Below the pieces are notes generated by a model. It did no database searches and had not been told where the DNA came from. It worked only from the letters and a program-made list of their open reading frames with translations. A stretch of DNA of 64,000 nucleotides from positions 1 to 64,000 of the forward strand of contig NZ_QRGA01000018.1 of assembly GCF_003367175.1 (NCBI RefSeq), in the 5' to 3' direction. The stretch comes from Trinickia dinghuensis (GTDB lineage Bacteria; Pseudomonadota; Gammaproteobacteria; Burkholderiales; Burkholderiaceae). The position numbers and the translations under genes were made by a program. Positions 43,469 to 59,077 of this stretch are shown here, piece by piece; the stretch's first letter is position 1; each line of letters opens with the position of its first letter.

Positions 43469-43475
43469 AAACTGC

Positions 43476-43504
43476 TTTACGAGCCGCCGAGTATCTGACA
43501 TAAT
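43476..43504 (+). promoter_or_regulatory. Promoter of tRNA-Val
   Basis: TTTACG (43476-43481), 17 bases and CATAAT (43499-43504) form a reasonable sigma-70 promoter whose transcript would start a few bases before the tRNA at 43517. Confidence 0.6.
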
Positions 43505-43516
43505 TCGAGGCTCTTC

Positions 43517-43591
43517 GGGTGGTTAGCTCAGCGGTAGAGCACTGCCTTCACACGGCAGGGGTCACTGGTTCGATCCCAGTACTACCCACCA
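43517..43591 (+). tRNA. tRNA-Val (anticodon CAC)
   Basis: The 75-base sequence folds into a cloverleaf: acceptor GGGTGGT/ACTACCC (one G-U) with discriminator A and an encoded CCA. It has a D arm with AGCTCAGCGGTAGAGC, anticodon stem CTGCC/GGCAG with loop TTCACAC giving CAC, and a T arm with TGGTTCGATCCCA. It reads GUG codons. It marks the left edge of the accessory region; I found no copy of its 3' end further right. Confidence 0.97.
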
Positions 43592-43625
43592 GATTCATGG
43601 GTATGTTGAAAGCCCGAAGAACAAA

Positions 43626-43659
43626 GGCCCTCAGGCGTTAGCCGAGGGCCTTTTTCTTT
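43626..43659 (+). terminator. Terminator after tRNA-Val
   Basis: GGCCCTC and GAGGGCC form a 7-base stem with an 11-base loop, followed by TTTTTCTTT. It lies 35 bases after the tRNA 3' end. Confidence 0.9.
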
Positions 43660-43691
43660 GCGCGCGGAATTTGAGCAAGCGAGAGCTAGAT

Positions 43692-44018
43692 ATGAACATC
43701 CTGACGTTTAGTCAGGCGCGAGCCGACTTTGAGCAGGCCCTGGATGCGGTGTGCAAGAACCACGAACCAACGGTGATTACCCGTCAGCGTGGCGAACATG
43801 TCGTCATGATGTCGCTCGAGGACTACAACAGCTTGCAGGAGACCCTCCACCTGTTGAGCACCCCAACGAACTCCGATCGACTGCGCCAATCCATCGCTGA
43901 GTTCAGGGCCAGCAGGACCTTTGTAAGGGAATTGGTGATAATGACGCAGAAGAAGAAGGTGAAAAACAACGCCGCAGGGGTAACTAGCCACAAGGTTGCA
44001 CAAAGGACGAGCACCTAG
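43692..44018 (+). CDS. Phd/YefM-family antitoxin without a toxin partner
   Basis: The 108-residue product starts MNILTFSQARADFEQALDAV and continues VITRQRGEHVVMMSLEDYNS, the DNA-binding Phd/YefM fold. The region LQETLHLLSTPTNSDRLRQS is the usual linker to the toxin-neutralising tail. Ordinary YefM proteins are about 83-90 residues and are followed at once by yoeB. Here the tail continues with a basic stretch (MTQKKKVKNNAAG) and no toxin gene follows in any frame. It may act as a stand-alone repressor or anti-addiction antitoxin. It sits 100 bases after tRNA-Val at the border of the island. Confidence 0.8.
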   Translation: MNILTFSQARADFEQALDAVCKNHEPTVITRQRGEHVVMMSLEDYNSLQETLHLLSTPTNSDRLRQSIAEFRASRTFVRELVIMTQKKKVKNNAAGVTSHKVAQRTST

Positions 44019-44689
44019 CAGCGGCAGAAGGGTAGCGGCTCGGCCTCGTGTGTTCACGATGATGAATCACGCACAACGCAGTCGCTACGCCACTGCCACC
44101 GGCCAAGATGATTGGCGCTATCCAAATTGTTAGGCTAGGCTTGCCTGGGGACGCTCAAGCAAGGCTGGCCGCATCCTCTCGCGTCGAGCAGAGGGCCTGC
44201 TGAGCGACGCGGCATGGTGTAACATAGACACTTGCAACGTATGCTGCAGTGCAGAAAGTTCCATTGCCCCCGCCGCTGTGACTTGGAACCGGTGGCGACG
44301 AGTGAAAAATTCTCCGCATTGAGAAAAGACGAGAATTAACAACCACATTGTGGGAAATTTTGGAACAAATCCGCACTACCACTAACCCAGCGCTTGACTA
44401 ATCGGCATCTTCAGGTATCTTTGCCTCATCAAGCGCCGGGTTGGTGGCGCTCAAATCGGTTTTTCTTAGCGCTGGCCTTAGTCGCCTGCGCACTTTCTTG
44501 TACGGATCTGTGGATCCGAAGTTGTATCAATGGTGCCCACCTGCGAAAGCGGTGGGTATGGTCAAGCACCTGGAGGAATCATGTGCTAATCACTCTGAGA
44601 AGCACAAAGTGATCTCGTTGTACTTAAAGCCCCGCTCTCAGCGGGGCTTTTTTATGCCAATCCAAACTATTGAGACAAAGCTTGCTTGC
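44019..44689. other. Gene-poor stretch left of the NTPase gene
   Basis: No open frame here has convincing protein features. Short frames (for example on plus from 44394 and 44441) have no recognisable motif and unusual composition, and the longest runs antisense into the NTPase gene. The base composition is lower in GC than the housekeeping genes to the left. A strong terminator lies at 44626-44653, so some plus-strand transcript, possibly a small RNA, may end there. Confidence 0.5.
44626..44653 (+). terminator. Strong terminator at the 3' side of the NTPase gene
   Basis: AAAGCCCCGCT and AGCGGGGCTTT make a perfect 11-base stem with a three-base loop, followed by a run of six T that continues the arm. 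It is oriented best for plus-strand transcripts, although no gene is recognised just before it. From the minus strand it has only three T, so it would stop NTPase transcripts less well. Confidence 0.88.
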
Positions 44690-47365
44690 CTAGACCGCAG
44701 GCGCGCGGGGCAACTCGAGCCATATTTTTCGAGAAAATATATCAACTCGCTTGATCGCCATTTCAATAACTTCATTTGGCATGTACACATCGCTATCGAT
44801 ATAATCATCGGGCAACTGATTTTTATGCAGCAAACCTGTAATTCCGCTTCCTAGATCCACAAACAGGCCATGCAGCAGAGTTCGATTCACGACCCTTCCA
44901 GAAATAACGACCCCATCATCACGCAACTGCTCTAGCTTTCTCCAAGCTTCCGGAATAGAATGCTTCATTAGCTCGTCGATTCCTCGTTGAGCTACCGATA
45001 TATCAATCAAGTCCGTCATCTCTGAATCGATTTGGCGATACGTCGAAATTTGATCCCTTAATTGTCCTTGCTTTTTCGCAATATAATTCACAAAATCGCG
45101 AGCATTGTGAATTTGAGTATTCAAGTGGAAATGCTCATTCAAGCTAGCGATGCGATCAGCTATCCGCCTAGCGGTATCTACGTCATCGATCCATGTGTCC
45201 TCTGCAATCGTCGCCAAGTAATCCACGCTACTTAGAAGTTCAAGATGAACGAAACCCGCAGATGACAGACGAATTAGATCATCTTCATCGACTTTTTCGA
45301 CCGTCAAATTTTCGGATAAAACGCAATGAGATTTGATCAACACATCGAGTTCGCGATCAAATGAATAATCAGGCACCCCCAATACGATCAGATTGGCACG
45401 CAGCTCCTTAACGGGGAAGTACCCCCGAACTCCATTCCGTCCTGGTTGAGAAAATCGCGCGCTTAGCCACCGCAAAATAAGCAACCTGGTAAAATAAAAT
45501 GGCGAACTATCCTTATGAAATATATCAAAAACATTTTTTACGGAGGAGCTTTGTCCATCGTAATATCGCAAATTGCCCCTAAGGAGAATTCGAGTTACAA
45601 GGTAGAGCGGCAATGTATATGCCCCCTCACTTTTTCTTATCTTAAATATTTCATCTTCGCCCAAATGCGCACTATTGCAAAAATCAATAAATATCTCAAG
45701 TGCCTTCCGAATATTTTTACCAGACAGGCCAGTTATCATACGTCGTATGAATCTATCGTGCTCAAAAAGCGATCGAATAATAGAAGCCAGATAAAAGGCC
45801 TGATCAGTATACGGATATTCAACATGAAACCCATTCGGCAAATCGTAGCGCAACGTTTTGTCAACATCAGCACGCATCTTTGACAGTGCGAGTTGCACCC
45901 GCTTAACAAGAACATGTTGAAAAAGCGGAGCCTCGATACGGAATATTAAATCCTTCAAGGCCGTATCAAGCGGCGGCTGATCCTGATGCGCCTCAAAAGT
46001 TTCTTCGCGCAGCGGAAGAATGATAAGCGAGCGATATTCGTTCTGGATCCACTGTGCCGCCTGGAACATCAGCAACTGTTCATCGCGCGAACGCTTATCG
46101 CAGTTATCGAGAACGATAATGAGCAATTTCCCACGATCGCCACAACAATACCTGGATATCGCCTGCGACGTAATTTCGTCATCTGCACGCCATTTCTCAA
46201 TCGCCTGCACTAGGCGACGATTATATTCAACAGTATCCCCCGAATCGAGAAGCAATTTTCCATCTATTTTTTGAAATTTATTATATTCGACCGAATAAAC
46301 TTTTTTGGTTACATCCAAGCTATCGAAATCCTCTGACGGATATTTACCCATGCAGCCGACAGCAATCTGCCTTCGAAGCCATTTGTATATTTCATCACTC
46401 GATATAGGCGCCGTATTCATATCAATTCGGCACCAAAGCGTGGTATCGATGATATCTTGAGGTAGCGCCTTGTAGATCAGATGATCTACAAACGTAGACT
46501 TTCCCGAGCCAACACTACCTATCAAAAGTAGAATCTTCCGCTCAAGGCGTAGGCCAGTACGCAACTTCTCGATTAACTCGGATGGATTTGCGGATTCTTT
46601 GATTAAAGTTGCACTCGTTTCGCTAAGAGGTCGGGCCGCACGGATGATCTTATCAATCGGCTCGACAGCCCGAATGGACGCTCGCGAATCTACATACGCG
46701 TTCCTTGCGATTTCCGCCTTGTCTTCCGTGGTCTCGGGGGCAAAAATATAACCAAAATCGGCGGATAGCGTGAGTCCAAACGTATTTTGGCCGACTTCTT
46801 CGCTTTGGACCGAATTTCCCCCCAGCATTTTTTTTGGCTTCCAATATTTATCTGGCTTTCTCTTATAATTAAGGGAGCTTGCGTGCTTTTGCAGTGAGTC
46901 TGAATTAATCAAGTTTTGAAGATCTGCGTATGCCTGATGACCAACCGTTAACTCGGGAAGCTCCACTTTGGCGAACAGCTCGGAATCGGGCACCCCATAC
47001 ATCAATTCCGCACCATTCGAACTTATTATGTATTTAACTGGATTAAATTCCGCCTCATATTTTGCATTTATTTCATTTGCATACAGACGAGCCTCACGAA
47101 AACCAACCTCCGCAGACTCTGACGGCTTCTTTGCCTCCACAATTAGTACGGGCAGGCCATCACTCATAACGATATAATCCGGAAAATATAGCTTCGCCTC
47201 CTTACCCTTTCCGATTTCCAATCGTCGCGTTGAATGCTTCGTTAAAATATGCGAAGACTCTATCCCTAGCCCGTATGGCAGGGGCTCAGTTAGCATCGGG
47301 AACAACACCTTTTGCTCAACATCGGATTCTGTTAGCAACTCTTCCAATGAGGGAAGTTTCTGCAT
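44690..47365 (-). CDS. HsdR-N nuclease / P-loop NTPase / S1-domain protein (putative defence)
   Basis: This 891-residue protein has no recognised name. Residues 1-150 match the N-terminal domain of type I restriction R subunits, with a PD-(D/E)xK site: Pro62-Asp63 in FPDYIVMSDG and Glu77-x-Lys79 in LIVEAKKP. Residues 265-570 are a P-loop NTPase: Walker A GSVGSGKST at 283-291, Walker B LLIIVLDNCDKR with Asp420, an arginine in ILPLREE, and a sensor-2-like GLSGKNIRKALE at 546-556. Residues 575-720 look helical/winged-helix. Residues 815-888 are an S1 RNA-binding domain (ISGRVVNRTLLHGLFVDLGS, then GITGLLHK). No helicase motifs and no membrane segment are seen. The gene is much more AT-rich than its neighbours, consistent with transfer. 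The architecture fits a nuclease fired by an RNA-sensing NTPase; that role is inference. Confidence 0.75.
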   Translation of the reverse strand: MQKLPSLEELLTESDVEQKVLFPMLTEPLPYGLGIESSHILTKHSTRRLEIGKGKEAKLYFPDYIVMSDGLPVLIVEAKKPSESAEVGFREARLYANEINAKYEAEFNPVKYIISSNGAELMYGVPDSELFAKVELPELTVGHQAYADLQNLINSDSLQKHASSLNYKRKPDKYWKPKKMLGGNSVQSEEVGQNTFGLTLSADFGYIFAPETTEDKAEIARNAYVDSRASIRAVEPIDKIIRAARPLSETSATLIKESANPSELIEKLRTGLRLERKILLLIGSVGSGKSTFVDHLIYKALPQDIIDTTLWCRIDMNTAPISSDEIYKWLRRQIAVGCMGKYPSEDFDSLDVTKKVYSVEYNKFQKIDGKLLLDSGDTVEYNRRLVQAIEKWRADDEITSQAISRYCCGDRGKLLIIVLDNCDKRSRDEQLLMFQAAQWIQNEYRSLIILPLREETFEAHQDQPPLDTALKDLIFRIEAPLFQHVLVKRVQLALSKMRADVDKTLRYDLPNGFHVEYPYTDQAFYLASIIRSLFEHDRFIRRMITGLSGKNIRKALEIFIDFCNSAHLGEDEIFKIRKSEGAYTLPLYLVTRILLRGNLRYYDGQSSSVKNVFDIFHKDSSPFYFTRLLILRWLSARFSQPGRNGVRGYFPVKELRANLIVLGVPDYSFDRELDVLIKSHCVLSENLTVEKVDEDDLIRLSSAGFVHLELLSSVDYLATIAEDTWIDDVDTARRIADRIASLNEHFHLNTQIHNARDFVNYIAKKQGQLRDQISTYRQIDSEMTDLIDISVAQRGIDELMKHSIPEAWRKLEQLRDDGVVISGRVVNRTLLHGLFVDLGSGITGLLHKNQLPDDYIDSDVYMPNEVIEMAIKRVDIFSRKIWLELPRAPAV

Positions 47366-47451
47366 CTTAGCCCCGCCTGTGACAATTAAAAATCATTAGA
47401 ACCGGTGAACCGTGCACTCAACGAGAGGCAGTTGGTCAATAGCGTTAAGTT

Positions 47452-47504
47452 AGTATATTGCGATAAACTCTACCATCGTGTCGAGTCTTCTCGATACGAT
47501 GGTA
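47452..47504 (-). promoter_or_regulatory. Hairpin/palindrome and possible -10 upstream of the NTPase gene
   Basis: TACCATCGTGTCGAG (47471-47485) and CTCGATACGATGGTA (47490-47504) form a 15-base inverted repeat with one G-U and a four-base loop. On the minus strand, TATACT (47457-47452) lies 13 bases past it and could be the -10 for the NTPase gene 87 bases on. No -35 is recognisable; the palindrome covers that position and could be an operator. It also lies within a coding-like fragment, so chance self-complementarity is possible. Confidence 0.4.
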
Positions 47505-47697
47505 CGCGGCCACTACATCCTTTGTGGACGTGTAGTTCATCACTCCATGGATCGCTCGGCCTTCATTGACCAACTCGCTCAGTGCGCTACCCGTGCGCGC
47601 TCAAGCGCGTCGGCAACGACACACTTTTGATGCGGTCGATCGAGGAGCGCGTCGCTGCACAGTCAACCGGCATCGAATCAACTTCAGATTGACGCAC
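47458..47697 (-). pseudogene. Degenerate coding fragments, unidentified
   Basis: On the minus strand, one frame reads SSIDRIKSVSLPTRLSAHG to a stop near 47600. A different frame then reads ALSELVNEGRAIHGVMNYTS and continues to RHDGRVYRNILT before stopping at 47458. Both pieces have protein-like composition, but neither has a start codon with a ribosome binding site. They look like one gene end broken by a frameshift. I do not recognise the family. They could be the decayed 3' end of the pseudogene immediately upstream, or part of another gene. Confidence 0.4.
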
Positions 47698-48866
47698 TCA
47701 CAAGCAAGCGCCCATACGCGTTAGCTTCAACTCGCGCCCCTTAGCACCTGCGATCTTGAAGCGAGTCAACCGATCGACCTTCCGCGAGTGCTTGATTGAA
47801 CACGCAGTATCGACGAACGACGCCGGAATGTGATCGTCGAGCCCCTTCTGCCCTTGGCAGCGTGCCCCTTCTTCAGGCAACAACAGAGCGACACAACGCA
47901 GCCCGACCGACGGCCATCGTCATCTAAGTCTCCATCGAGCCTCTCCACCATACCGATAGACGTATCGACTCAATCCCGTTCGACCACGCGCAATTCTCGG
48001 CGAAGCTCCTCCACACGCAAAAAATCACCGTGCTGTATGCGAATAGGCCTGGTCAGCATCGGATCATCAACCTTGTGCAGGACAGACCAATCGAATCCAA
48101 TGTCTAAGGAGTTTCCAATGCGATCGTCGTACATCGCGCAGATCGCTTCGCACAGATTTGACGATATAAGCGGTGCCTGCGAGTACTTCAGAACGTGCAC
48201 CAAGTCATCCAGCCGGTCCGCCTCGATCGCAGTCGCAAGTCCCGACAACGCGCGCTGCAAAGAGAGCATCACCTGCCGCACGAACGGTGTGTCGCTAGCT
48301 TCGAGCGGCAACCCACTCTGTACTTCCATTGCGTTGATCGGACATGCCACGCGCAAGACCAAGCTGCCGGCCTCCGTCGGATCAAATCGCGCGTGTTCGA
48401 CGAACTGTGCGGCTTCGCTCAGGACGAGTCGCGAATGATGCATCTGAGGACGAAGCGCCGTATATGCCGCAGCCCTCAGCAGCTTTTCAGTGCTGCTTAT
48501 CAGCAGCGATGCAAAACTCAGCGGGAGTTCGCGATCATTGCCCTCGACCAAAACGCGTAAGCGCAACACGTCGTCACGGAACGTCCCCATTCTGGATAGG
48601 ATTGATCCGTTCGACTGCCCCGTCATTTCGGAAAGCTTCTGCACCACTCTGCAGGTCGCCTCCTGGTAGTCCGGTGCTGCAATGTCCATCGGGAACATGA
48701 GTTGGCGCTGCGGAAAGCTGACATTCTCGAAGACATATCGGCGATCTCTTAAAGCTCGCTCGATATACCGCCAGCCGAGCGATTCCAGGAAATCGCGGAG
48801 GTCTGTGGGCGCGATCGTCTTATCCATCCGCTCCGCCTCAATATCCGCGTCAGTTAATGGTTTCAT
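47698..48866 (-). pseudogene. Unidentified gene disrupted by stop and frameshift
   Basis: An intact frame of 298 residues runs from ATG 48866 to a TGA at 47970-47972. The same frame continues past the stop with VDTSIGMVERLDGDLDDDGR. Near 47880 the protein-like reading shifts frame and continues LLPEEGARCQGQKGLDDHIP to FKIAGAKGRELKL. This pattern means the C-terminal 85 or so residues are decayed. The N-terminal part is soluble, with VSFPQRQLMFPMDIAAPDYQ near residue 50 and LPLSFASLLISSTEKLLRAA near 115. I cannot name the family. It lies upstream of the NTPase gene on the same strand and may once have been its partner. A truncated 298-residue product could still be made. Confidence 0.65.
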
Positions 48867-49042
48867 AAGCCCACTTCAAAAGCAGTGGGCCGGACCATAG
48901 CAAACAGATAACGATCCGCGATAAGCTTCGCAAAAATTTAGGACCAAGTCGCCCTAGCGCGCTACGCGGGAACCGTGATGCGGCCCGCTACCGATCATCA
49001 GTCCCGGCAACACAAAAAAAGCTGGAGGCAACGCGGCCCCGC

Positions 49043-49996
49043 TCAAACAACATTCACCGGCGCCCCCTCGACGAACCACTCGATGTTCCCAATCAATTGA
49101 TCGGCAAGCGTTTGCTGTGCTTCGTTCGAGGCCCACGCGACGTGCGGCGTCACGATCACGTTGTGGCGCGACGCCACGCGCATGAGCGGACTGTCCATGG
49201 ATGGCGGCTCGCCATCCGCGACGTCGAATCCCGCACCGCTGACGAGTCCCTCGTCGAGCGCCGTGACCAAATCGGCTTCGTCGACCAAGCCGCCCCGCCC
49301 CGTATTGATGATCAACGGCCGCCGCGCCATCGCACGAAACTCGGGAAGCGCCAACATGTTGCGCGTCCGTTCCGTGAGCGGGCTATGCAGCGTGATGACG
49401 TCGCTCGTTGCAAGCACGTCCTCCCACGGCGTGTAGAGCCCTCCCTGCCCCGTGCGCCCCTTGTGCGCCGCAAACATCGGCACCATCCCGAATGCCTTGC
49501 CGATCTCGGCCACGCGCTGCCCGAGCACGCCTTCTCCGATAATGCCGAGACGCGCGTCGGCAAGATCGCGGATCGTATGGTTGAAAAAGCAGAATTGCCC
49601 TGACTTTTGCCACTCGCCCGCCAATACGTCTTCGCGATAAGCGATGAGGTTCCGGCGCAATGCCAGCATGAGCGCGAATGCGTGCTCCGGAACGGTATTC
49701 GCAGCGTAACCGCGGATGTTGCTCACGACGATGCCGATCTGCCGGCACACGGCCTTGTCGACGCAATCGGTGCCGGTCGCCGCCACCGCAACGAGCGTGA
49801 GATTCGGCAGCATCTTCAGCACTTCACCGGGCAACGCCACCTTGTTCGTAATGGCGATCGTGGCGCCCGCAAGCCGCTCGGCCACCTGATCGGGCGTCGT
49901 GCGGTCATATTCGATCCACTCGTGCGCGAAGGACGGCACGCGCAACCGAATCTGAGGCGCGAGCGTCGCGCGGTCGAGAAAGACGATCTTGTGCAT
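49043..49996 (-). CDS. D-2-hydroxyacid dehydrogenase (glycerate/hydroxypyruvate type)
   Basis: A 317-residue NAD(P)-dependent dehydrogenase of the D-isomer 2-hydroxyacid family. The nucleotide-binding motif is degenerate (RLGIIGEGVLGQRVAEIGKAFG, GxGxxG present as GEGVLG). The substrate-binding VAATGTDCVDK, the catalytic Arg region INTGRGGLVDE and the His in VTPHVAWAS are all present. Hydroxypyruvate/glycerate or glyoxylate/glycolate are typical substrates. It is the last gene of the transketolase-TRAP operon, 19 bases after the second transketolase. TTG at 50011 with AGGA seven bases upstream is an alternative start. A run of seven T just after the stop (49021-49015) behind a weak GC hairpin may terminate the operon. 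Confidence 0.86.
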   Translation of the reverse strand: MHKIVFLDRATLAPQIRLRVPSFAHEWIEYDRTTPDQVAERLAGATIAITNKVALPGEVLKMLPNLTLVAVAATGTDCVDKAVCRQIGIVVSNIRGYAANTVPEHAFALMLALRRNLIAYREDVLAGEWQKSGQFCFFNHTIRDLADARLGIIGEGVLGQRVAEIGKAFGMVPMFAAHKGRTGQGGLYTPWEDVLATSDVITLHSPLTERTRNMLALPEFRAMARRPLIINTGRGGLVDEADLVTALDEGLVSGAGFDVADGEPPSMDSPLMRVASRHNVIVTPHVAWASNEAQQTLADQLIGNIEWFVEGAPVNVV

Positions 49997-50015
49997 AGCG
50001 CGCTGATTCAATGGG

Positions 50016-52004
50016 TCATCCTAAGTTGATGAGACGCATCGCTTCGGCCACGACATGCTTGGCCGTGATGCCGAAGTGTTCGAAGAGCGCATCGGCCGGC
50101 CCCGATGCGCCGAAGCCGTTCATGCCGACGAAACCGCCCCGTTCGCCGAGATACCGATCCCAGCCGAATCTGACCGCCGCCTCGACCGCGACGCGTACGG
50201 TGCCGGGGCCCAGCACGGCTGCCCGATACGCGGCATCTTGGAGATCGAATTGCTCCCAGCAGGGCATCGAGACCACCGCTGCCGCCACACCCGCCGCCTG
50301 CAACCGCACTCTCGCCTCCAGCGCGACAGTCACTTCGGAGCCGCTGGCCAGCAGCGTGACGCGGCGCGGGCCGCCTTCGGCCTCGGCGAGCACATACGCG
50401 CCGCTCCGGCAAAGGTTGCGCTCGTCATGCTCGCGCCGCACGGGCGGCAGCGCCTGGCGCGCAAAAACCAAGGCGCTCGGCCCCGTGCGATGCTCGAGCG
50501 CCAACTCCCAGCATTCGGCGGCCTCGACTGCGTCGGCCGGCCTCATCACGAGCATATTGGGCATCGCACGCAACGATGCGAGGATTTCGACGGGCTGATG
50601 CGTGGGACCGTTCTTGCCTACGCCGATCGAGTCGTGACTGAAGACGAATTTCACCGGCAAACCCATCAGCGCCGCCATCCGCATCGCCGGTCGCTCATAG
50701 TCGGAAAAGGCGAGGTACGTCACGGCAAGCGGAATAACGCCGCCATGCGCGGCCATGCCGTTGGCCATCGCGCCCATCAGGTGTTCGCGCACCCCGCAGT
50801 GCACGTAGCCCCCAGCGCGATCGTGCGCGGTGAACGCTTGCAACTGGCGCTTGTGCCCCGTCGGCGCCTCGAGATCGGCGCAACCCACGATTCGCTCGGG
50901 TAGGCAGCGTGTAAGCGCATCGTTGATGTCGGCCGAAATCATGATGCCCGGCACCGCCTCGGCGCTTTCAATCGCGCGGCGGCGATAGGCATGGAGTACC
51001 TCTCGCCAATCGTCGGGCAATACGCCAGCCTGAATGCGTTCGAACTCGGCACGATCGGCTTCGGGCAGTGCATCCACGCGCGCCTGCCATTGAAGGTATT
51101 CGGTCTCGCCGCGCCGCCCTGCCGCGCGCCACGCGTCGAGCACGGCCGGCGGCACCTCGAATTCGGCATGCGCCCAATCGAGCCGAGTCCTCGCTTCATC
51201 GGCATCCGATGGAAACAGGCGCCCGCTATGTCCACCGCGCTGACCTTCCAGGCGTGCGATACCGCGGCCGATGACGGTCCGGCAGGCGATCATCGATGGC
51301 CTCGCGTCTTTGCGCGCCAGCGTCAGCGCGGCGGAAACGGCGTCGACGTCGTGACCGTCCACCTCTTGCACGTGCCAGCCCGCGACGCGAAATCGCTCGC
51401 CGACGTCCTCGCTGATCGACAGCGCCGTGCTGCCGTCGTCGGTGATGCGGTTGTCGTCCCAGCACAAGATCAGCTTGCCCAGTTGCAAATGGCCCGCGAG
51501 CGAAATCATTTCCTGGCCGATACCCTCCTGCAGGCAACCGTCGCCCACGAACGCATAGGTGTAATGGTCGACGATACCGCTACCGAACTTGGCCGCCAGG
51601 TAGGCTTCGGCAATCGCCATGCCGCACGCGTTCGCGATACCTTGACCGAGCGGACCCGTCGTCACCTCGATGCCTGAGGCGGGGTCGTATTCGGGATGGC
51701 CGGCGCAATGCGCGCCCAGCTCACGGAAGGATCGGATCTGCTCTAGCCCCACCCTTTCGTAACCGGTCAAGTACAGCAACGCATACAGCAGCATCGAACC
51801 ATGGCCGTTCGACAGGACGAATCGATCGCGATCGGGCCAAGTGGGTTCGCCCGAGTTGAATTTCAAATGGCGTGTGAACAAAGCCGTCGCGACTTCGGCC
51901 ATTCCGAGCGGTACGCCCTGGTGCCCCTCGCCGGCACGCAATATAGCGTCGATGGCAAGAAAGCGGATCGCGTTGGGCAAAGAGGGGGTGTCCATGGTCG
52001 ACAT
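50016..52004 (-). CDS. Transketolase (full-length)
   Basis: A 662-residue transketolase of the TktA type, a ThDP enzyme that moves two-carbon ketol units between sugar phosphates. The N-terminal domain has LSNGHGSMLLYALLYLTGYE, GPLGQGIANACGMAIAEAYL and the ThDP motif GDGCLQEGIGQE...DDN. The middle Pyr domain has VHCGVREHLMGAMANGMAAH, with the conserved activating Glu, and HDSIGVGKNGPTHQP. The C-terminal domain is complete. It is not the housekeeping copy by context: it sits in a catabolic operon together with a split transketolase. ATG codons at 52016, 52004 and 51995 are all possible starts. Confidence 0.93.
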   Translation of the reverse strand: MSTMDTPSLPNAIRFLAIDAILRAGEGHQGVPLGMAEVATALFTRHLKFNSGEPTWPDRDRFVLSNGHGSMLLYALLYLTGYERVGLEQIRSFRELGAHCAGHPEYDPASGIEVTTGPLGQGIANACGMAIAEAYLAAKFGSGIVDHYTYAFVGDGCLQEGIGQEMISLAGHLQLGKLILCWDDNRITDDGSTALSISEDVGERFRVAGWHVQEVDGHDVDAVSAALTLARKDARPSMIACRTVIGRGIARLEGQRGGHSGRLFPSDADEARTRLDWAHAEFEVPPAVLDAWRAAGRRGETEYLQWQARVDALPEADRAEFERIQAGVLPDDWREVLHAYRRRAIESAEAVPGIMISADINDALTRCLPERIVGCADLEAPTGHKRQLQAFTAHDRAGGYVHCGVREHLMGAMANGMAAHGGVIPLAVTYLAFSDYERPAMRMAALMGLPVKFVFSHDSIGVGKNGPTHQPVEILASLRAMPNMLVMRPADAVEAAECWELALEHRTGPSALVFARQALPPVRREHDERNLCRSGAYVLAEAEGGPRRVTLLASGSEVTVALEARVRLQAAGVAAAVVSMPCWEQFDLQDAAYRAAVLGPGTVRVAVEAAVRFGWDRYLGERGGFVGMNGFGASGPADALFEHFGITAKHVVAEAMRLINLG

Positions 52005-52107
52005 AGCAAAAAGCATCCTCCGCGCGGCCCTGAATCAGGGCCGCCGCCGGCAATGTGAGGGAAAAGGAAAAGGAAAGGGATCGATGCGAGCGGAACGCGC
52101 CGCCCAT

Positions 52108-53964
52108 TCAGCTCAAGAAGCCCGTGGAAATCCAAGGGATTGCCGCGACCGCGGCAAGTCCGACCGCCAGGGCGCCCAAGTACGGCCAAATCCGCCGCAA
52201 TCCCGCATTGGGATCGACGCGTCCGATCGTGCACGCGGCGTAGTAGCCCAAACCAAACGGCGGCGTGAACAAGCCGATGCCCATCGCGAGGATCACGGTG
52301 ATCGCGTAATGCACCTCGTGGATTCCAGCCTGACGTGCCATCGGAAAGAGCAGCGAACCGAACAGGACCATCGCGGGAATACCTTCGAGCACGCTACCCA
52401 ATACGATGAAGGCGATGACGGAGATGAACAAGAAGCCCCAAGCGCCACCCGGCATGTGCCCCATTGCCTGCGCCAGCGCCTGCGAAAAGCTGGCTTGCGT
52501 GAGCGCCCAGGCCATCGCCGTCGCGGCCCCGATGATCAGCAAGATCGCCCCCGACAGCGACGCGGTTTCCACGAGCATCGGATAAATACGGCGCCAATCG
52601 AAATGACGGTAGACGAGCAAGCCGACCACGACCGTATAGGCAATCCCGATCGTCGACACCTCGGTGGCCGTGGCCACGCCGTCCGCCACGACGAAGCGGA
52701 TCAGCACAGGCAGCACCAACGCGGGCAACGCCACCACAAAGGTTTTCAGCACCGTCTTCGCGCTTGCACGCTCCGCCTTCCCGGCTAGGTCCCCTGTGCG
52801 CTTGCGCGCAATCACCCCGAGCGCTACGGCCAGCACGAGGCCGGGCAGCAAGCCGCCCGTGAACAGCGCGGCGATCGACACACCGGTCACGGAGCCGATG
52901 ATGATCAGCACGAGCGACGGAGGAATCGTCTCCGCCATCGCGCCGCAAGCGGCGAGCAGCGAAACGAGTTCACCTTCCGGGATCCCACGCTTTTTCATCT
53001 CGGGAAAGAGCACCGGGGCGACAGCGGCCATATCGGCCGTCTTGGCACCGGAAATGCCCGAGACCAGAACCATCGCGCCGATCAACACGAACGACAGGCC
53101 ACCTTTGACGTGTCCGAGCAAAGCAGCGAGAAATGCAACCATCGCATTCGCCATCCGCGTCATCACGATCAGTTGCCCGAGCAACACGAATAGCGGCACC
53201 GCCAGCAACACGAGCGAACTCATTCCTTCATTCATCTGCCCCGTGATGACCGCAAGCGGAGTGGTCGTGGTGCTGAGCAGACAGGCAACCGTCGAGAGCC
53301 CGAAGCAAAATGCGATCGGCAGGCCGCCGAGCACACCGGCTGCCAGCAATACGCCGAAGAAAATCACGAGGCTCCAATTGCCGATCCCCCATATCCAGTT
53401 CCGCGCGAAATAGAGCGCGAGCGCAATCGCCGCCAGCGTGCCGAGCGCACACACCAATTCGCGCAGCCGATGACGCGCGAGTTGCGTGCAGCAGATCGCG
53501 AGCATCAGGACGCTTCCGACGGGGACGGCCGCGACTCGGATCGTGTCCGGAATCCCCATGACCGGCGTCTGCACGACCCACTGATCTTGCGCGTAGTTGA
53601 TCGACGGCCCGAGCATGACGGCGAGGAACAGACACGGCGCTCCGACGGCGAGCGCTTCGGCATATGCACGCCAGGCCGGCTGCAGACGCTGGGCGAGCAC
53701 CGTCATCCTCATGTGATCGCCTCGGCGCAACGCCACGGCCGAACCGAGCATCGCGAGCCACAGGAAGAGAATGGAGGCCAACTCGTCGCTCCAGACGAGC
53801 GGATAGTCGAACACGAAGCGTGAAATGACGCCGGCCAGCAAGACGACGACCTCGGCCAGCACAATGAGCGCCGCGGGCAATTCGACGATCCAGCCGAGCG
53901 CGGTATCGCACCGTACCTGCCATAAGGGAGGACGATGCTCGCCTAACGACAGTGTCCCGCTCAT
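52108..53964 (-). CDS. TRAP transporter permease, fused DctQ-DctM
   Basis: A 618-residue fusion of the small and large membrane subunits of a tripartite ATP-independent transporter. Residues about 20-170 are the four-helix DctQ part (FVFDYPLVWSDELASILFLW, VALRRGDHMRMTVLAQ). Residues about 185-618 are the DctM part with GLPIAFCFGLSTVACLLSTT, VPLFVLLGQLIVMTRMANAM and GSVLEGIPAMVLFGSLLFP. It works with DctP using the sodium gradient. The start ATG overlaps the dctP stop by four bases (ATGA). Fused QM proteins are common for carboxylate and sugar-acid importers, but the substrate cannot be read from this chain. Confidence 0.93.
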   Translation of the reverse strand: MSGTLSLGEHRPPLWQVRCDTALGWIVELPAALIVLAEVVVLLAGVISRFVFDYPLVWSDELASILFLWLAMLGSAVALRRGDHMRMTVLAQRLQPAWRAYAEALAVGAPCLFLAVMLGPSINYAQDQWVVQTPVMGIPDTIRVAAVPVGSVLMLAICCTQLARHRLRELVCALGTLAAIALALYFARNWIWGIGNWSLVIFFGVLLAAGVLGGLPIAFCFGLSTVACLLSTTTTPLAVITGQMNEGMSSLVLLAVPLFVLLGQLIVMTRMANAMVAFLAALLGHVKGGLSFVLIGAMVLVSGISGAKTADMAAVAPVLFPEMKKRGIPEGELVSLLAACGAMAETIPPSLVLIIIGSVTGVSIAALFTGGLLPGLVLAVALGVIARKRTGDLAGKAERASAKTVLKTFVVALPALVLPVLIRFVVADGVATATEVSTIGIAYTVVVGLLVYRHFDWRRIYPMLVETASLSGAILLIIGAATAMAWALTQASFSQALAQAMGHMPGGAWGFLFISVIAFIVLGSVLEGIPAMVLFGSLLFPMARQAGIHEVHYAITVILAMGIGLFTPPFGLGYYAACTIGRVDPNAGLRRIWPYLGALAVGLAAVAAIPWISTGFLS

Positions 53965-55004
53965 GCCAGCGCTCCCGTCGTGTTTTGCAGCAGCGCCCAC
54001 GCTTGATCGCCGAACTTCGTCCGCCAATCCTTGTAGAAGCTCGTCTTGCGCAGTTGATCGCGAAAGGCTTGCTTGTCGACGTCGAGCAACTGCAGCCCCT
54101 TCGACGAGAGATTCTGCTTGAGCGTGTCGTTCAAGCTTGCGATATCGGCGCGCTCCTCGAGCGCGGCACGGTCGAACTCGTGCTGCACGATCGATTGGAT
54201 GTCGGGCGGCAAGCGTTTGAATGCGGCCGGATTGCCGAGAATCCAGTAGGTATCCCATACGTGGCTGGTCAGACTCACGTATTTCTGCACCTCGTAGAGC
54301 TTGGCCGTGGCGATGATCGGCAGCGGGTTTTCCTGGCCGTCGACGAGGTGGGTTTGCAGCGCGGAATAGAGTTCGTTGAAATTGATCGGCGTCGGACCGG
54401 CTTGCAGCGAGCGAAACAGAGAAATCATCATCGGCGCGACCGGAACCCGGATCTTGAATCCGCGCAGATCGTCGGGCGTCCGAATGGCCTTCGTCGACGA
54501 CGTGATCTGCCGAAATCCGTTGTCCCACGGACGCGACATGGTCAACATTCCGACTTTGTCGATCTGGCCGCGAATGTACTTGCCCAATTCGCCGTCCATG
54601 GCCTTCCAGACATGATCGTAGTCGGGGAATGCGAAGCCTGTATTCGCGATGCCGGCCGCCGGCACGAGCGTCGACATGACGGAGGCAGCCATGTTGATGA
54701 ACTCGACGCCGCCATTGCGAATCTGCGACAGCAAATCCGTGTCGGAGCCGAGCTGATTGCTCGGGAAGACTTTGATTTCCAGCCGCCCGCCCGATGCGGC
54801 CAAGATCCGATCCGCGGCTTGCTTGGCTCGGACGTTGACCGGGTGGGTGGGATCTTGTCCCGTCGCCAGCTTGTACGAAAACTGCGGCGCTGCCGATGCG
54901 CGGCGCGCGACGCCCCAAAGCGGTGCAGCGACCGACAGCGCTGCTCCTGCTTTCAGAAACGTGCGTCGGTCCATACGGCTCTTCGTGTTCGAATTCGTCG
55001 TCAT
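53961..55004 (-). CDS. TRAP transporter periplasmic solute-binding protein (DctP)
   Basis: A 347-residue solute receptor. The N-terminus has a twin-arginine signal (MDRRTFLKAGAALSVAAPLW), so the protein is probably exported folded by Tat. The mature part has the DctP pattern: GQDPTHPVNVRAKQAADRIL, KVFPSNQLGSDTDLL and LRGFKIRVPVAPMMISLFRS, which contains the arginine that binds the ligand carboxylate. GPTPINFNELYSALQTHLVD and DGQENPLP follow. A carboxylated ligand is therefore likely. ATG 55004 is preceded by GGAGGAG at eight bases. It is coupled to the fused permease. Confidence 0.93.
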   Translation of the reverse strand: MTTNSNTKSRMDRRTFLKAGAALSVAAPLWGVARRASAAPQFSYKLATGQDPTHPVNVRAKQAADRILAASGGRLEIKVFPSNQLGSDTDLLSQIRNGGVEFINMAASVMSTLVPAAGIANTGFAFPDYDHVWKAMDGELGKYIRGQIDKVGMLTMSRPWDNGFRQITSSTKAIRTPDDLRGFKIRVPVAPMMISLFRSLQAGPTPINFNELYSALQTHLVDGQENPLPIIATAKLYEVQKYVSLTSHVWDTYWILGNPAAFKRLPPDIQSIVQHEFDRAALEERADIASLNDTLKQNLSSKGLQLLDVDKQAFRDQLRKTSFYKDWRTKFGDQAWALLQNTTGALA

Positions 55005-55104
55005 GATCTGCTCCTCCATGATGGTGTGGGTCGTTTTTCTAGTTGTTCGTCGAAACCGTGGCGCGCAGCCGAGCGCGCCGATCGTCTGCCTCCGATCCGA
55101 TCGC

Positions 55105-55869
55105 TCAGCCGTGAATGAGCATGCCGCCGTTCACGTCGATCACCGCGCCCGTGATGTACGAAGACAGATCCGACGCGAGGAAAAGGAACGCCCCCGCGAC
55201 GTCGTCGACCCCACCCAGACGATTGAGCGGAATGCCCGTGAGGATTTCCGCCCGTTTCTCGTCGCTGATCTTCCCGGCGTTGATGTCGGTCTGGATCAGG
55301 CCCGGGGTCACGCAATTGACGCGGATACCGTCGATGCCGAATTCACGAGCCATCGCTTTTGCCAATCCGAGCACACCCGCTTTCGCCGCCGAATAGTGCG
55401 GACCGCCTAAAATCCCGCCGCCGCGCTGCGCCGACACCGAGGACATGCACGCAATCGAACCGGACCGCTGCTTTTTCATCTGCGGCAGCACGGCCTGCGA
55501 GAGATAAAGCACGCCGCGCAGATTGACGTCCAGGATGCGGTCCCAACCTGCCGCGTCGATATCGAGCAACTTGGCCGGCTGCGTGATGCCGGCGTTGTTG
55601 ACGAGCACGTCGATCCGGTCGAACTCGCGGACGATCCGCTCGATCGTTGCCTGGCATGCATCGCGATCCGTCACGTCGCAGGCATAGCCGCGATGTGCCG
55701 CGCCGAGCGAGGCCGCCGCGGCGGAGGCATCCGCCTCGTTCAGATCGAGGATGGCGACGCGGGCGCCATGACGCGCGAACATGCGCGCAGTGGCCAGACC
55801 GATGCCGCGCGGCGAAGCCGCACCCGAGATGACAGCCACCTTGCCATCGAGCAGATGAGTTTCTGACAT
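55105..55869 (-). CDS. Short-chain dehydrogenase/reductase (FabG-like)
   Basis: A 254-residue classical SDR: the NAD(P) loop ISGAASPRGIGLATARMF at residues about 14-31, the acidic residue in AILDLNEAD (favouring NAD), VLVNNAGITQ near 87, the Ser in SSVSAQRG and the Tyr-Lys pair in HYSAAKAGVLG. It should oxidise or reduce a secondary alcohol or ketone in the imported compound. It lies between the split transketolase (56-base gap) and the TRAP genes in the same operon. The exact substrate is not determinable. Confidence 0.9.
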   Translation of the reverse strand: MSETHLLDGKVAVISGAASPRGIGLATARMFARHGARVAILDLNEADASAAAASLGAAHRGYACDVTDRDACQATIERIVREFDRIDVLVNNAGITQPAKLLDIDAAGWDRILDVNLRGVLYLSQAVLPQMKKQRSGSIACMSSVSAQRGGGILGGPHYSAAKAGVLGLAKAMAREFGIDGIRVNCVTPGLIQTDINAGKISDEKRAEILTGIPLNRLGGVDDVAGAFLFLASDLSSYITGAVIDVNGGMLIHG

Positions 55870-55925
55870 GTAGTTCTCCTAAGTAACGTAATGGGTAATT
55901 GAATGGATCGTTGAGCGTGCTGGGG

Positions 55926-56927
55926 CTAGCGAAGCCAGACTTTGATCGTCTCGCTGATCGCCGACGTCGAGATCTTGTAACGGTCGTGCAACGTCGGCAG
56001 CGCGCCGGCGTCGAGGAATGCATCGGGCAAGCCGATTTGCCGAAACGGCGGCGTGACGCCGTTGCCGATCAGCAGCGCGGCAACGGCTTCGCCGAGCCCG
56101 CCGATCACCGTATGATTCTCGGCGACGACGACCAGGCGAGCGTTACGCTTGGCCTCACGCAGAATGGTCACGGTGTCGAGCGGCTTGATCGTCGGCACGT
56201 GCAATACCCCTACGCCGATCCGATCGAGTTCGAGCGCCTTCGCCACTTCGAGCGCGCGCATCGTCATGATTCCCGACGAGATGATCAGCACGTCGGCACC
56301 GTCGCGCAGCATCTTTGCCCGACCGATTTCGAAGCGGTAGCCGTATTCGTCGAGCACCACGGGAACGTTGCCGCGCAGCAGACGCGCATAGACAGGGCCG
56401 CGGTGACGGGCCATCGCCGGCACCATCTGCTCGATTTCGAGCGCATCGCAAGGATCGATGACGGTGAGGTTCGGCATCGCTCGGAACAGCGCCAAGTCCT
56501 CGGCGGCCTGGTGGCTGGGTCCATATCCCGTCGTCAAGCCGGGCAACGCACAAGCGATCTTGACGTCGAGGTTGTCCTCGGCAATCGCCTGATGGATGAA
56601 GTCGTAAGCTCGGCGCGCCGCGAATACGGCGTAGGTCGTCACGAACGGCAGCGCACCTTCGTGCGCCATGCCGGCGGCGGCGCCGAACAGCAGCTGCTCG
56701 GCCATCCCCATCTGGTAGAAGCGCTCGGGGTATGCCTTGGCAAAAAGATGCAAATCGGTGTACTTGCCGAGGTCGGCCGTCATGCCGACCACATCGCTTC
56801 GCTCGCGTGCCAGTTCCACCAGCGCGTGACCGAACGGGGCCGAACGCGTCTTTTGTCCTTCGCCGGCGATCGAGGCGATCATCGCGGACGTCTTCAGACG
56901 AGGCTTCGATGATGCGTTCGTGCTCAT
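55926..56927 (-). CDS. Transketolase C-terminal subunit (split transketolase)
   Basis: A 333-residue chain covering the Pyr and C-terminal domains of a transketolase-type ThDP enzyme. YQMGMAEQLLFGAAAGMAHE carries the conserved Glu that activates thiamine. TTYAVFAARRAYDFIHQAIA, GLTTGYGPSHQAAEDLALFR and VVVAENHTVIGGLGEAVAAL match the family. The first 30 residues are a variable extension. It cannot act without the ThDP-phosphate-binding half, encoded just upstream with a four-base ATGA overlap. Together the two chains make about 621 residues, close to one full transketolase. Confidence 0.92.
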   Translation of the reverse strand: MSTNASSKPRLKTSAMIASIAGEGQKTRSAPFGHALVELARERSDVVGMTADLGKYTDLHLFAKAYPERFYQMGMAEQLLFGAAAGMAHEGALPFVTTYAVFAARRAYDFIHQAIAEDNLDVKIACALPGLTTGYGPSHQAAEDLALFRAMPNLTVIDPCDALEIEQMVPAMARHRGPVYARLLRGNVPVVLDEYGYRFEIGRAKMLRDGADVLIISSGIMTMRALEVAKALELDRIGVGVLHVPTIKPLDTVTILREAKRNARLVVVAENHTVIGGLGEAVAALLIGNGVTPPFRQIGLPDAFLDAGALPTLHDRYKISTSAISETIKVWLR

Positions 56928-57790
56928 GTGCGGCTCCCTGCGTCGTGCGCATCCGATGCTTCGAGTGCTTCGAGTGCGAGTTGCCATTCGTGAGGCTCCA
57001 CGCGAATGAAGTGATTCTTTTCGCGCGCTTCCAGGAAGGGAACGCCGCACCCCATCTTCGTATCGCAAACGATCATTCGCGGGCAGGACCCGGAGTGGGC
57101 GCGCGCAGCGTCGAATGCGGACACCACGGCTGCGAGGTCGTTGCCGTCCACGCGCTGGACGTACCATCCGAACGCTTGGAGCTTCTCGACGAGCGGCTCG
57201 AACGACATGACTTGCGCCGACGGACCGTCCGCCTGCTGGTTGTTGACGTCGACGATACCGATCAGGTTATCGAGCTTCCAGTGGGCGGCCGACATGAGCG
57301 CCTCCCAAACGGCCCCCTCATCGAGCTCGCCGTCGGAAAACAGCGTGTACACAAACGCGTCGGAGCCCTTGCGCTTGAGGCCTAGACAGCGGCCGACCGC
57401 GATCGTCAGGCCCTGTCCGAGCGAGCCGCCGGACATCTCCATGCCAGGTGTGTAGCTCGCCATACCCGACATCGGCAAGCGGCTGTCGTCGCTGCCGTAA
57501 GTCTCCAATTCGGCTTCGGGAATCACGCCGGCCTCGATCAACGCGGCATACAGCGCAATGGCGTAGTGACCGTTGGAGAGCAGAAAGCGGTCGCGCCCCT
57601 CCCATTCGGGGTCTTCCGGCATGAGTTTGAGCGCGTCGCAGTACGCGACGGCCAGCACATCCGCAATATCGAGCGCTTGCGCGATATAGCCCTGCCCTTG
57701 CACTTCTCCCATCCGCAACGCATTGCGCCGGATGCGCTTCGCGCACTGCGCAAGATGGGCGTGACGCCCGCTGTCGCTGCTTGTCACCAT
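56924..57790 (-). CDS. Transketolase N-terminal subunit (split transketolase)
   Basis: A 288-residue chain with the N-terminal PP domain: DRFLLSNGHYAIALYAALIE, GGSLGQGLTIAVGRCLGLKR, and the ThDP pyrophosphate/magnesium motif FSDGELDEGAVWEALMSAAH...VDVNNQQ. It matches the N-terminal subunit of split transketolases. It is the first gene of the operon, 110 bases from the divergent LysR gene, and is coupled to the C-terminal subunit gene. Having this pair and a second complete transketolase in one operon is unusual. Confidence 0.92.
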   Translation of the reverse strand: MVTSSDSGRHAHLAQCAKRIRRNALRMGEVQGQGYIAQALDIADVLAVAYCDALKLMPEDPEWEGRDRFLLSNGHYAIALYAALIEAGVIPEAELETYGSDDSRLPMSGMASYTPGMEMSGGSLGQGLTIAVGRCLGLKRKGSDAFVYTLFSDGELDEGAVWEALMSAAHWKLDNLIGIVDVNNQQADGPSAQVMSFEPLVEKLQAFGWYVQRVDGNDLAAVVSAFDAARAHSGSCPRMIVCDTKMGCGVPFLEAREKNHFIRVEPHEWQLALEALEASDAHDAGSRT

Positions 57791-57824
57791 GTCCTCCGTT
57801 TTTGCCGTCGTCAGTGAAACAAAG

Positions 57825-57861
57825 CGTAATGCCTTGAACTGCTGCGCTCAAACGAATTACG
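57825..57861. promoter_or_regulatory. Nested inverted repeat between the operon and its LysR gene
   Basis: CGTAAT (57825-57830) and ATTACG (57856-57861) flank TTGA (57834-57837) and TCAA (57848-57851), giving a nested symmetric site. The inner part has the spacing of a LysR T-N11-A box. It is midway between the divergent starts at 57790 and 57901 and is the likely binding site of the LysR protein. Confidence 0.65.
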
Positions 57862-57900
57862 ATGGGCCTATCGGTGAATTCAATTCATGTAGACGCTGCA

Positions 57901-58791
57901 ATGCACAATCGCATCACGCTCAAGTCGATTCAGGCTTTCGAGGCCGCCGCCCGGCTGTCGTCTTTTGCGCTTGCAGCCGAGGAACTTTTCGTGACGCCGT
58001 CCGCAATCAGTCATCAGATCAAGCTTCTCGAGGATCAACTGAACATCAAGTTGTTCCATCGCGTGCATCGCGCGGCGATCTTGACCGATTCGGGCCGGCA
58101 CTATGCTGAGGAAATCACGGCGGCCTTTACGCGCATCGAACAGGCGACCCGCGAAATCGGGCGCGTGGCGAAAAGCGATATCCTCACGATCCACTGCACG
58201 CCGAGTTTCGCGACGCAATGGTTGATGCCGCGTATCGCACGGTTCAGTTCGCAGCATCCCGATATAGACGTGCGGCTCAACGCATCGTCCGGCGCCGTCG
58301 ATCTCGTCTCCGAGAGCGTTGACGTCGACATTCGCTACGGCGCGCGCAAGCTGCAGCCGCCCGGCACGATGGTGCTCGAACTGCCGCCGGAAACCGTGGT
58401 GCCGCTGTGCGCGCCCGAGTTGGCCCACGGTCCGCATCCGATCGGCCGTGTCGCCGACTTGCGCGAGCACACGCTCATTCACAGCGAAGGCTGCCTGGTG
58501 GGATGGCGGGACTGGATGAGGCTTCATCGCAAAATACCGCTCGATATCACGCGCGGCCCTCGATTCGATCGCTCGTTCATGTCGATCGGCGCCGCCGTGG
58601 ACGGTTTGGGGGTGTGTCTGGAGAGTCTGTTGCTCGCGCGGCGCGAACTCGAGTCGGGGCGGCTGGTGGCGCCTCTAGGTGTGGAAGGATTGAAGGTGCA
58701 CGGCTATACGCTGAACTTGCTTAAATCGCGCGCCGATTTGCCGAAGCTGCGCAGCTTTCAGGATTGGCTCTTCGCCGAACTGGAGAAATAG
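57901..58791 (+). CDS. LysR-family transcriptional regulator (GcvA-like)
   Basis: A 296-residue regulator. The winged HTH at residues about 8-65 contains SIQAFEAAARLSSFALAAEE and TPSAISHQIKLLEDQL, very like GcvA. The periplasmic-binding-like effector domain follows (LTIHCTPSFATQWLMPRIAR, VDVDIRYGA). The frame extends 13 codons upstream, but MHNRITLKSIQAFEAAARLS is the usual start. Divergent position and the nested palindrome indicate it controls the transketolase-TRAP operon, probably activating it when the imported compound or a metabolite binds. Confidence 0.92.
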   Translation: MHNRITLKSIQAFEAAARLSSFALAAEELFVTPSAISHQIKLLEDQLNIKLFHRVHRAAILTDSGRHYAEEITAAFTRIEQATREIGRVAKSDILTIHCTPSFATQWLMPRIARFSSQHPDIDVRLNASSGAVDLVSESVDVDIRYGARKLQPPGTMVLELPPETVVPLCAPELAHGPHPIGRVADLREHTLIHSEGCLVGWRDWMRLHRKIPLDITRGPRFDRSFMSIGAAVDGLGVCLESLLLARRELESGRLVAPLGVEGLKVHGYTLNLLKSRADLPKLRSFQDWLFAELEK

Positions 58792-58819
58792 AACTGGCAT
58801 ACCGCCGTCTGTAGCTCAT

Positions 58820-59077
58820 CTACTCCACCGCCTCATCCGCCCCCGGCTCCCCTTCTCCAAGCTCAGCCCCGGTCTCCGGATCATGCGTCCGATCCGACCG
58901 CAACCTCCGCTTCATCTCATCGAGCGTCGCCCTCTTCTGCTCGCTCAACTGCTCCGCTGCCGATCCATCTCCGCCAACCCGCCAACCGTGTACTGAAGCC
59001 GCTTGTTGTGCATGAACACGGCCCCTTTTTGGTCGTGGGTGAACGATGCGTCGCCCTCCTATGTCCGCAACGAGCAT
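58820..59077 (-). pseudogene. Possible small-gene remnant
   Basis: A minus-strand frame of 85 codons whose second half (EQLSEQKRATLDEMKRRLRS, then DRTHDPETGAELGEGEPGAD) looks like a genuine charged, coiled protein tail. The first half is Arg/Pro/Gly-rich and looks like non-coding GC-rich sequence, and no ribosome binding site is seen. It may be the surviving 3' end of a gene. It fills most of the gap between the LysR and PadR genes; the rest of that gap is AT-rich regulatory DNA. Confidence 0.3.

Follow-up and report, generated by a model that had tools for sequence, protein, structure and literature searches.

Situated on the minus strand at positions 44690..47365 of a 64,000-nucleotide stretch of the Trinickia dinghuensis contig NZ_QRGA01000018.1 (hereafter termed the window) is an open reading frame (ORF) with an ATG start, which encodes a protein of 891 amino acids (aa) that combines an N-terminal nuclease domain, a central nucleoside triphosphatase (NTPase) and a C-terminal S1 domain. 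The protein represents a mobile family with conserved active sites that is unnamed in the libraries searched (PADLOC 2.0 and NCBIfam), and it is probably an anti-phage protein that functions on its own and travels as cargo of mobile elements, with a nucleic acid-binding tip, an AAA+ switch and a DNA-cutting nuclease. The HsdR-type PD-(D/E)xK nuclease domain comprises residues 1-170 (46856..47365; all domains lie on the minus strand) and includes E17, D63, E77 and K79. The AAA+ nucleotide-binding domain (residues 261-480; 45926..46585), delineated from a structure model, structural matches and conservation, contains a Walker A motif at residues 283-291 (46493-46519) and a Walker B motif at residues 414-424 (46094-46126), the latter reading D420-N421-x-D423. 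Residues 481-712 (45230..45925) form a helical lid with an invariant R553 and a winged-helix-like region, as judged from the secondary structure of the model, structural matches and conservation, the label ‘winged-helix’ being a putative one for part of this segment. A fast-evolving helical connector (residues 713-805; 44951..45229) leads to the S1 domain, which adopts an OB-fold (residues 806-889; 44699..44950) and is replaced by an RRM domain, or by nothing, in some relatives.

Pfam searches identified HSDR_N in residues 61-124 (E=1.6e-8) and S1 in residues 818-875 (E=1.5e-6), both above the curated cut-off, while the P-loop matches were weak and under cut-off (AAA_22, E=3.8e-4; nSTAND_NTPase5, E=9.1e-4). 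In a structure model of the whole protein (predicted local distance difference test score, 88.5; predicted template modelling score, 0.81), the PD-(D/E)xK and S1 folds are both present. The nuclease domain first matches HsdR and other DNA restriction enzymes, its D/E/K triad aligning with that of EcoR124I HsdR, with which it also has an ESD-E motif in common, and the S1 domain is nearest to the repeats of ribosomal protein S1. Structural matches of the NTPase to ORC/Cdc6, RdrA, CED-4 and ZAR1 span about residues 195-701 in the model search. An earlier interpretation made from the DNA letters alone (the sequence-only reading) had related this NTPase to STAND-type switches, which is at most a candidate assignment, as STAND/NLR and ORC/Cdc6 structures match it about equally well. 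The absence of a superfamily 2 (SF2) helicase and of a tetratricopeptide repeat sensor, also part of that reading, is borne out by the Pfam matches at E<=1, among which there is no helicase family and no repeat family; the centre of the protein is AAA+ in the model, and residues 713-891 consist of a short helical part and the S1 fold.

Residues 7-766 furthermore match positions 22-785 of the 833-position model of phrog_14719 in PHROGs (E=1.1e-151), a family to which no function is attached and whose match to the window protein ends ahead of the S1 domain. NCBIfam returned zero families above cut-off, its hsdR model matching residues 58-138 only and far under cut-off, while PADLOC 2.0 returned no significant model for the 891-aa protein, the best being mad8 (E=0.0012) in the P-loop only. 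PADLOC 2.0 likewise yielded no family at E<=1e-6 for an Escherichia coli homologue and five sister proteins, described below. Among the papers listed by full-text literature searches, none was recognised as a description of a nuclease-NTPase-S1 architecture, and the earlier statement that no named system has this domain order thus holds for PADLOC 2.0, NCBIfam and the papers listed.

Residue conservation was assessed in an alignment of 185 distinct homologues, composed of 120 listed proteins plus proteins of the loci described below, with seven loci and two duplicates excluded. D63 is Asp in 184 homologues and a gap in one, while E77, K79, G283, G286, G288, K289, T291, D420, N421, D423, R453, R489 and R553 are invariant in all 185. 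The sequence-only reading had assigned an HsdR-N PD-(D/E)xK domain with Asp63, Glu77 and Lys79, a Walker A motif at 283-291, a Walker B Asp420 and a C-terminal S1 domain; the Pfam matches, the model and the conservation agree with each of these, and they add the invariant Asn421 directly after the Walker B Asp420. The sensor-2-like motif of the same reading fits R553 in GLSGKNIRKALEIF, kept in 185/185, a residue that would correspond to the sensor 2 of AAA+ proteins.

Mean pairwise identity per domain, compared across 83 sequences under 70% identity, is highest in the nucleotide-binding part (0.50), followed by the lid (0.48), the linker (0.45), the nuclease (0.42) and the winged-helix part (0.40), and is far lower in the connector (0.28) and lowest in S1 (0.25). 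When six C-terminal pieces, picked from 42, were scanned with Pfam, RRM_1 was found at the C-terminus of two proteins (L027, in two stretches, and L034) and S1 at that of two others (L040 and L043), while the remaining two (L048 and L057) had no Pfam match at E<=0.01. The C-terminal domain is missing altogether from five of the 185 aligned proteins (P0103, L036, L037, L038 and L055). The tip is the fastest-evolving part of the protein and varies between S1, RRM and absence while the core stays the same, a pattern that a sensor or targeting unit would be expected to show. Five sister proteins (L002, L003, L089, L091 and L092) possess the NTPase and lack an S1 match. HSDR_N-type families were detected at E<=0.01 in three of them (L091, L092 and L002), with above-cut-off matches confined to L091 and, by HSDR_N_2, L092; an E-x-K motif is readable in all five, and the DN-x-D Walker B was found in three by pattern search and in the other two by reading the sequences. 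Two of these sisters, L002 and L003, with a nuclease-like N-terminus and no S1, belong to the genus of the window.

A protein search scored 7998 candidates, of which 942 protein clusters reached E<=1e-3. Within a set of 101 genomes (own included), eight have a match at E<=1e-3, and the full-length protein occurs only in the own genome; the other matches are sisters at 25-28% identity (G002, G003 and G042) and four single-domain matches. An alignment search of 399 genomes of the order gave matches at E<=1e-40 in three, own included, and the phrog_14719 model matched four of 398 phylum genomes at E<=1e-20, namely the own genome and three with sisters (L089, L091 and L092). The one full-length copy in 101 genomes and the three matches in 399 genomes of the order rule out a core or housekeeping gene. 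Two short peptide patterns retrieved 51 loci from a species genome collection, the titles of which include Proteobacteria, Bacteroidetes, Verrucomicrobia, Acidobacteria, Clostridia and others. Matches were also present in 17 plasmid records, four of which cover at least 80% of the query. The gene is thus an accessory one with a patchy spread and with homologues across many phyla.

Homologues were found on 23 viral contigs, and in 11 of these the gene occupies the interval between gpA and gpQ of P2-like phages (three with one flank only), a figure that is not a rate since the collection holds viral contigs by design. In eight loci (L069-L072, L074, L076, L077 and L084), the homologue is preceded by the P2-type replication gene gpA, encoded on its own strand, and followed by the portal gene gpQ on the opposite one, with L070 and L071 encoding an identical protein (100%). 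In L073 and L078, gpQ is present and the contig breaks off within 0.1 kb in the direction expected for gpA, while L075 has gpA, with 1.9 kb of DNA on the other side. In three further viral loci (L080-L082) the homologue is located 57-493 bases from a CI-like repressor gene. According to PMC9122126, the gpA-gpQ interval of P2-like phages is a hotspot of diverse anti-phage systems, which in P2 itself holds old and tin.

Used as a DNA query, the L074 gene matched 109 of 5426 E. coli genomes, in a single copy each and in all cases on the chromosome, by a search that would miss more divergent copies. All 109 matches are 80-90% identical to the query, and these near-equal identities suggest one widespread prophage lineage. 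The four E. coli genomes inspected (L129-L132) all have the order replication endonuclease, small ORF, homologue, P-loop NTPase gene and portal gene, although the annotation of strain FCI54 splits the homologue into two ORFs. The neighbouring NTPase (614 aa) matches Pfam KAP and, as scanned on L129, PADLOC PDC-S49 (E=7.3e-28).

Other contexts are illustrated by loci that were chosen by inspection and do not represent a rate; in most of the 49 genome loci, no recognised defence gene is present in the DNA scanned. In L038 the gene is placed 145 bases after HmaA and 10 bases before HmaB, with HmaC beyond, and in L037 and L036 the flanks are similar to HmaA and HmaB, the L036 contig being 5 kb long with incomplete flanks. 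All three loci belong to Verrucomicrobia (the phylum of Prosthecobacter and Luteolibacter), and the fourth locus from that phylum, L055, is without such flanks. The tip-less homologue between HmaA- and HmaB-like genes in L036-L038 is perhaps part of an Hma variant with an extra effector. Type I restriction-like and methylase-like genes lie upstream in L020, a DNA methylase gene overlaps the homologue by 4 bases in L050, and candidate genes of PDC-S02 and PDC-S11 occur within 1.1 kb in L047 and within 0.3 kb in L015, respectively. In L016 a DUF4238 gene is 110 bases away, and a DUF4238 protein gave protection against T7 in PMC9122126. In L114, probably on the same contig as the Aquitalea protein P0008, a TniQ gene is located 0.7 kb off, the remaining Tn7-type genes being named by eye; in L115 a DUF2130 gene, which is not a known defence family, adjoins the homologue, and on a Desulfocapsa plasmid the homologue is next to a replication initiation gene. 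The carrier elements thus vary, and include P2-like and other prophages, plasmids, a Tn7-like element and a chromosomal insertion. When the 842 ORFs lying no more than 7 kb from the homologue in 72 loci were clustered, no common operon partner emerged, the largest clusters (9-10 of 72 loci) being P2-like phage genes.

The chromosomal insertion is that of the window itself, where a tRNA-Val(cac) gene (43517..43591, plus strand) marks the left edge of a variable region. DNA to the left of this tRNA gene is conserved in all 10 other genomes of the genus, while to its right an insertion of ~15 kb relative to these relatives was delimited (43660..58820, unstranded), with the nuclease-NTPase-S1 gene in its left part of low guanine-plus-cytosine (GC) content (about 44-49 kb). 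The gene has a GC content of 44.7%, compared to about 64% further left, in accordance with its earlier description as AT-rich. Similarity resumes at about 58.8-59.4 kb in seven of nine relatives examined: the DNA before it measures 0.25 kb in G004 and 0.7 to 4.6 kb in G002, G003, G006, G008 and G009, whereas G001 has a further island there; in G007 none was found in 20 kb, and in G010 the contig ends. None of these genus relatives has a full-length gene. The inserted segment (43.66 to about 58.8 kb) is bipartite, with a low-GC part that holds the gene and extends to ~49.0 kb, and a second block that occupies the remainder, from 49.0 kb to 58.8 kb. In relative G009, whose contig C1 matches the left flank, this second block (49036-58790) has an 84-87% similar counterpart on another large contig, C2; it appears to represent a move of ~9.7 kb containing transketolase, dehydrogenase and TRAP-transporter genes, and all five ORFs scanned in the interval 49.0-55.9 kb have metabolic or transport functions. 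The tRNA-Val end recurs 16.7 kb away in G001 and 22.8 kb away in G007, indicating an integration site that is used repeatedly. In the window the last 23 tRNA bases occur once, allowing up to 3 mismatches, and thus no duplication of an attachment site was seen for this insertion.

Directly behind the tRNA gene lies a Phd/YefM antitoxin gene (43671-44018, plus strand; Pfam, E=3e-24), beside which no toxin gene was recognised; relative G006 has a similar piece in the corresponding position (L118). On the other side of the nuclease-NTPase-S1 gene, a 298-aa ORF (47970-48866, minus strand) matches PADLOC PDC-M02B (E=2.1e-109; model positions 4-286 of 377). No obvious long continuation in three frames was apparent by eye beyond its stop, and it is possibly a decayed defence gene. 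The nuclease-NTPase-S1 protein was ruled out as half of PADLOC PDC-M02, only the neighbour and not the protein itself being matched. Five small ORFs around these neighbouring genes have no Pfam match, and Rfam at gathering threshold recognised only the tRNA, and no RNA partner, in 43400-49100.

A role in phage defence, as the sequence-only reading had proposed, is well supported by the hotspot, Hma and island contexts and by the patchy spread. The folds, the invariant residues, the exchange and fast evolution of the tip, and the mobile or defence-associated locations of some homologues are computed results, whereas the ligand, oligomerisation, DNA substrate and consequences for cell survival are inferred as follows. 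The S1 tip would bind a nucleic acid that becomes exposed on infection, RNA or single-stranded DNA being the most likely; ligand binding, together with ATP bound by an AAA+ core of ORC/Cdc6-STAND type, would trigger a conformational change or oligomer assembly; and the N-terminal HsdR-type PD-(D/E)xK domains, brought together, would then cut DNA, which may be phage DNA or all DNA, in the latter case aborting the infection. A narrower version, in which a single protein performs RNA-gated DNA restriction by reading RNA (e.g., phage transcripts) via exchangeable S1/RRM tips on an NLR/ORC core, is put forward only tentatively; OB folds can also bind single-stranded DNA, one of the facts that limit the proposed mode of action.

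Several observations weigh against the defence interpretation, or against parts of it. AAA+ proteins usually have a catalytic Glu at the position held here by Asn421, rendering ATP hydrolysis uncertain, and slow hydrolysis or a switch role may be envisaged for this NTPase. Complete ORFs are found in four of the five tip-less homologues, indicating that the tip is not required in every member. Nine of the 23 viral loci are without gpA, gpQ and a CI-like repressor; none of 49 genome-collection loci, of which 24 are flanked on each side by no less than 3 kb, has a gpA or gpQ neighbour in the DNA available; many loci derive from metagenome bins; and a search of 50,697 isolated phage records yielded no homologue at E<=1e-5. 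The hotspot itself also holds a putative partition system in about a fourth of P2-like phages and a toxin in about 2% of them, as stated in PMC9122126. Finally, the notion of a single-protein system is consistent with the lack of a common neighbour in 72 loci, but the KAP NTPase gene beside all four inspected E. coli copies may encode a partner there.

The best-surviving alternative is that the protein is a modification-sensitive or otherwise unusual restriction enzyme, whose AAA+ part loads on double-stranded DNA and picks its target by DNA modification or structure, S1 or RRM merely holding nucleic acid; restriction would then be direct, with neither RNA sensing nor suicide. This is considered unlikely. 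In its favour, the nuclease is nearest to HsdR and other restriction enzymes, the NTPase is near the DNA-binding ORC/Cdc6 proteins, and methylase or restriction-like genes occur at L020 and L050, the neighbour cluster containing both methylases being present in five of 72 loci. That cluster is, however, missing within 7 kb in the other 67, no methylase or specificity protein was found among the 12 neighbouring window ORFs scanned with Pfam in 43.6-55.9 kb (ORFs beyond these were not scanned), there is no SF2 helicase, and the recurrence of RNA-binding folds at the C-terminus would be left unexplained. It is quite improbable that the protein acts on its element's own DNA as an ORC/Cdc6-like ATPase and nuclease for maintenance or replication control of mobile elements: the ORC/Cdc6-like fold, the replication initiation gene adjoining the Desulfocapsa homologue and the partition genes that also occur in P2-like hotspots (PMC9122126) would fit such a role, whereas the element types differ, nearly all of the relatives searched lack the gene, and some copies are situated between Hma genes. 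Least probable of all is an RNA-targeting effector whose S1 brings the PD-(D/E)xK domain to tRNA, mRNA or ribosomes for cutting, a role with which the nearness of S1 to ribosomal protein S1 repeats and the substitution by RRM would agree, but the nuclease matches DNA restriction enzymes first and RNA cleavage by PD-(D/E)xK-type domains is, to our knowledge, uncommon.

In most known immune proteins of the nuclease-NTPase type, phage proteins are sensed by repeat domains. If RNA-binding tips are swapped on an otherwise unchanging core, this would point to another type of trigger; tip exchange would also offer a way to study ligand change in bacterial NLR-like proteins. The family is large and spans many phyla, and its homologue in E. 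coli P2-like prophages renders it amenable to standard phage assays.

Among described proteins, HsdR is alike in its PD-(D/E)xK domain, aligned D/E/K triad and ESD-E motif, but its SF2 helicase is replaced by AAA+ and S1 in the window protein, which is therefore ruled out as a type I restriction subunit; hsdM and hsdS were not found among the 12 neighbouring ORFs scanned between 43.6 and 55.9 kb, no search for them being made in other ORFs there or elsewhere in the genome. PMC8713573 lists a Campylobacter protein with an HsdR N-terminal domain, of unassigned role, and the prophage ATPase of PMC12724215 is unrelated. RADAR RdrA differs in that the window protein carries a fused nuclease. RdrA acts with the deaminase RdrB, and no RdrB deaminase was found among the same 12 ORFs scanned with Pfam. 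P2 old shares the gpA-gpQ hotspot and an ATPase-plus-nuclease design, but the OLD nuclease is of the TOPRIM type (PMC9122126) and that of the window protein is PD-(D/E)xK. The BREX-related DUF499 ATPases are alike in possessing a STAND/ORC-Cdc6 ATPase and variable C-terminal RRM-fold domains, but they belong to multi-gene systems, and no fused nuclease is described in the passages of PMC12839542 consulted; the DUF499 protein HmaC neighbours the homologue in L038. The TERNS3 conflict systems have predicted immune effector modules, some with OB-fold S1 domains that the authors of PMC8195603 interpret as serving nucleic acid recognition, although S1 is fused to OST-HTH there and not to a nuclease-NTPase. 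A resemblance in design is also seen to Avs and other STAND/NLR-like anti-phage proteins, in which, as here, an N-terminal nuclease effector is fused to a central NLR-like P-loop NTPase and a C-terminal sensor-like part, and the P4-hotspot STAND proteins with a Mrr_cat or BpuSI_N nuclease effector and C-terminal repeats (PMC9122126) provide an example. Avs proteins recognise phage proteins (terminase, portal). The window protein differs from Avs in its short helical connector and S1/RRM instead of repeats, its DN-x-D Walker B, its lack of a PADLOC Avs model match and its about equal resemblance to ORC/Cdc6 structures. While the lack of repeats thus separates it from Avs, as the lack of a helicase does from HsdR, it would work like the nuclease-NTPase-sensor defence proteins, as a variant with an S1/RRM tip.

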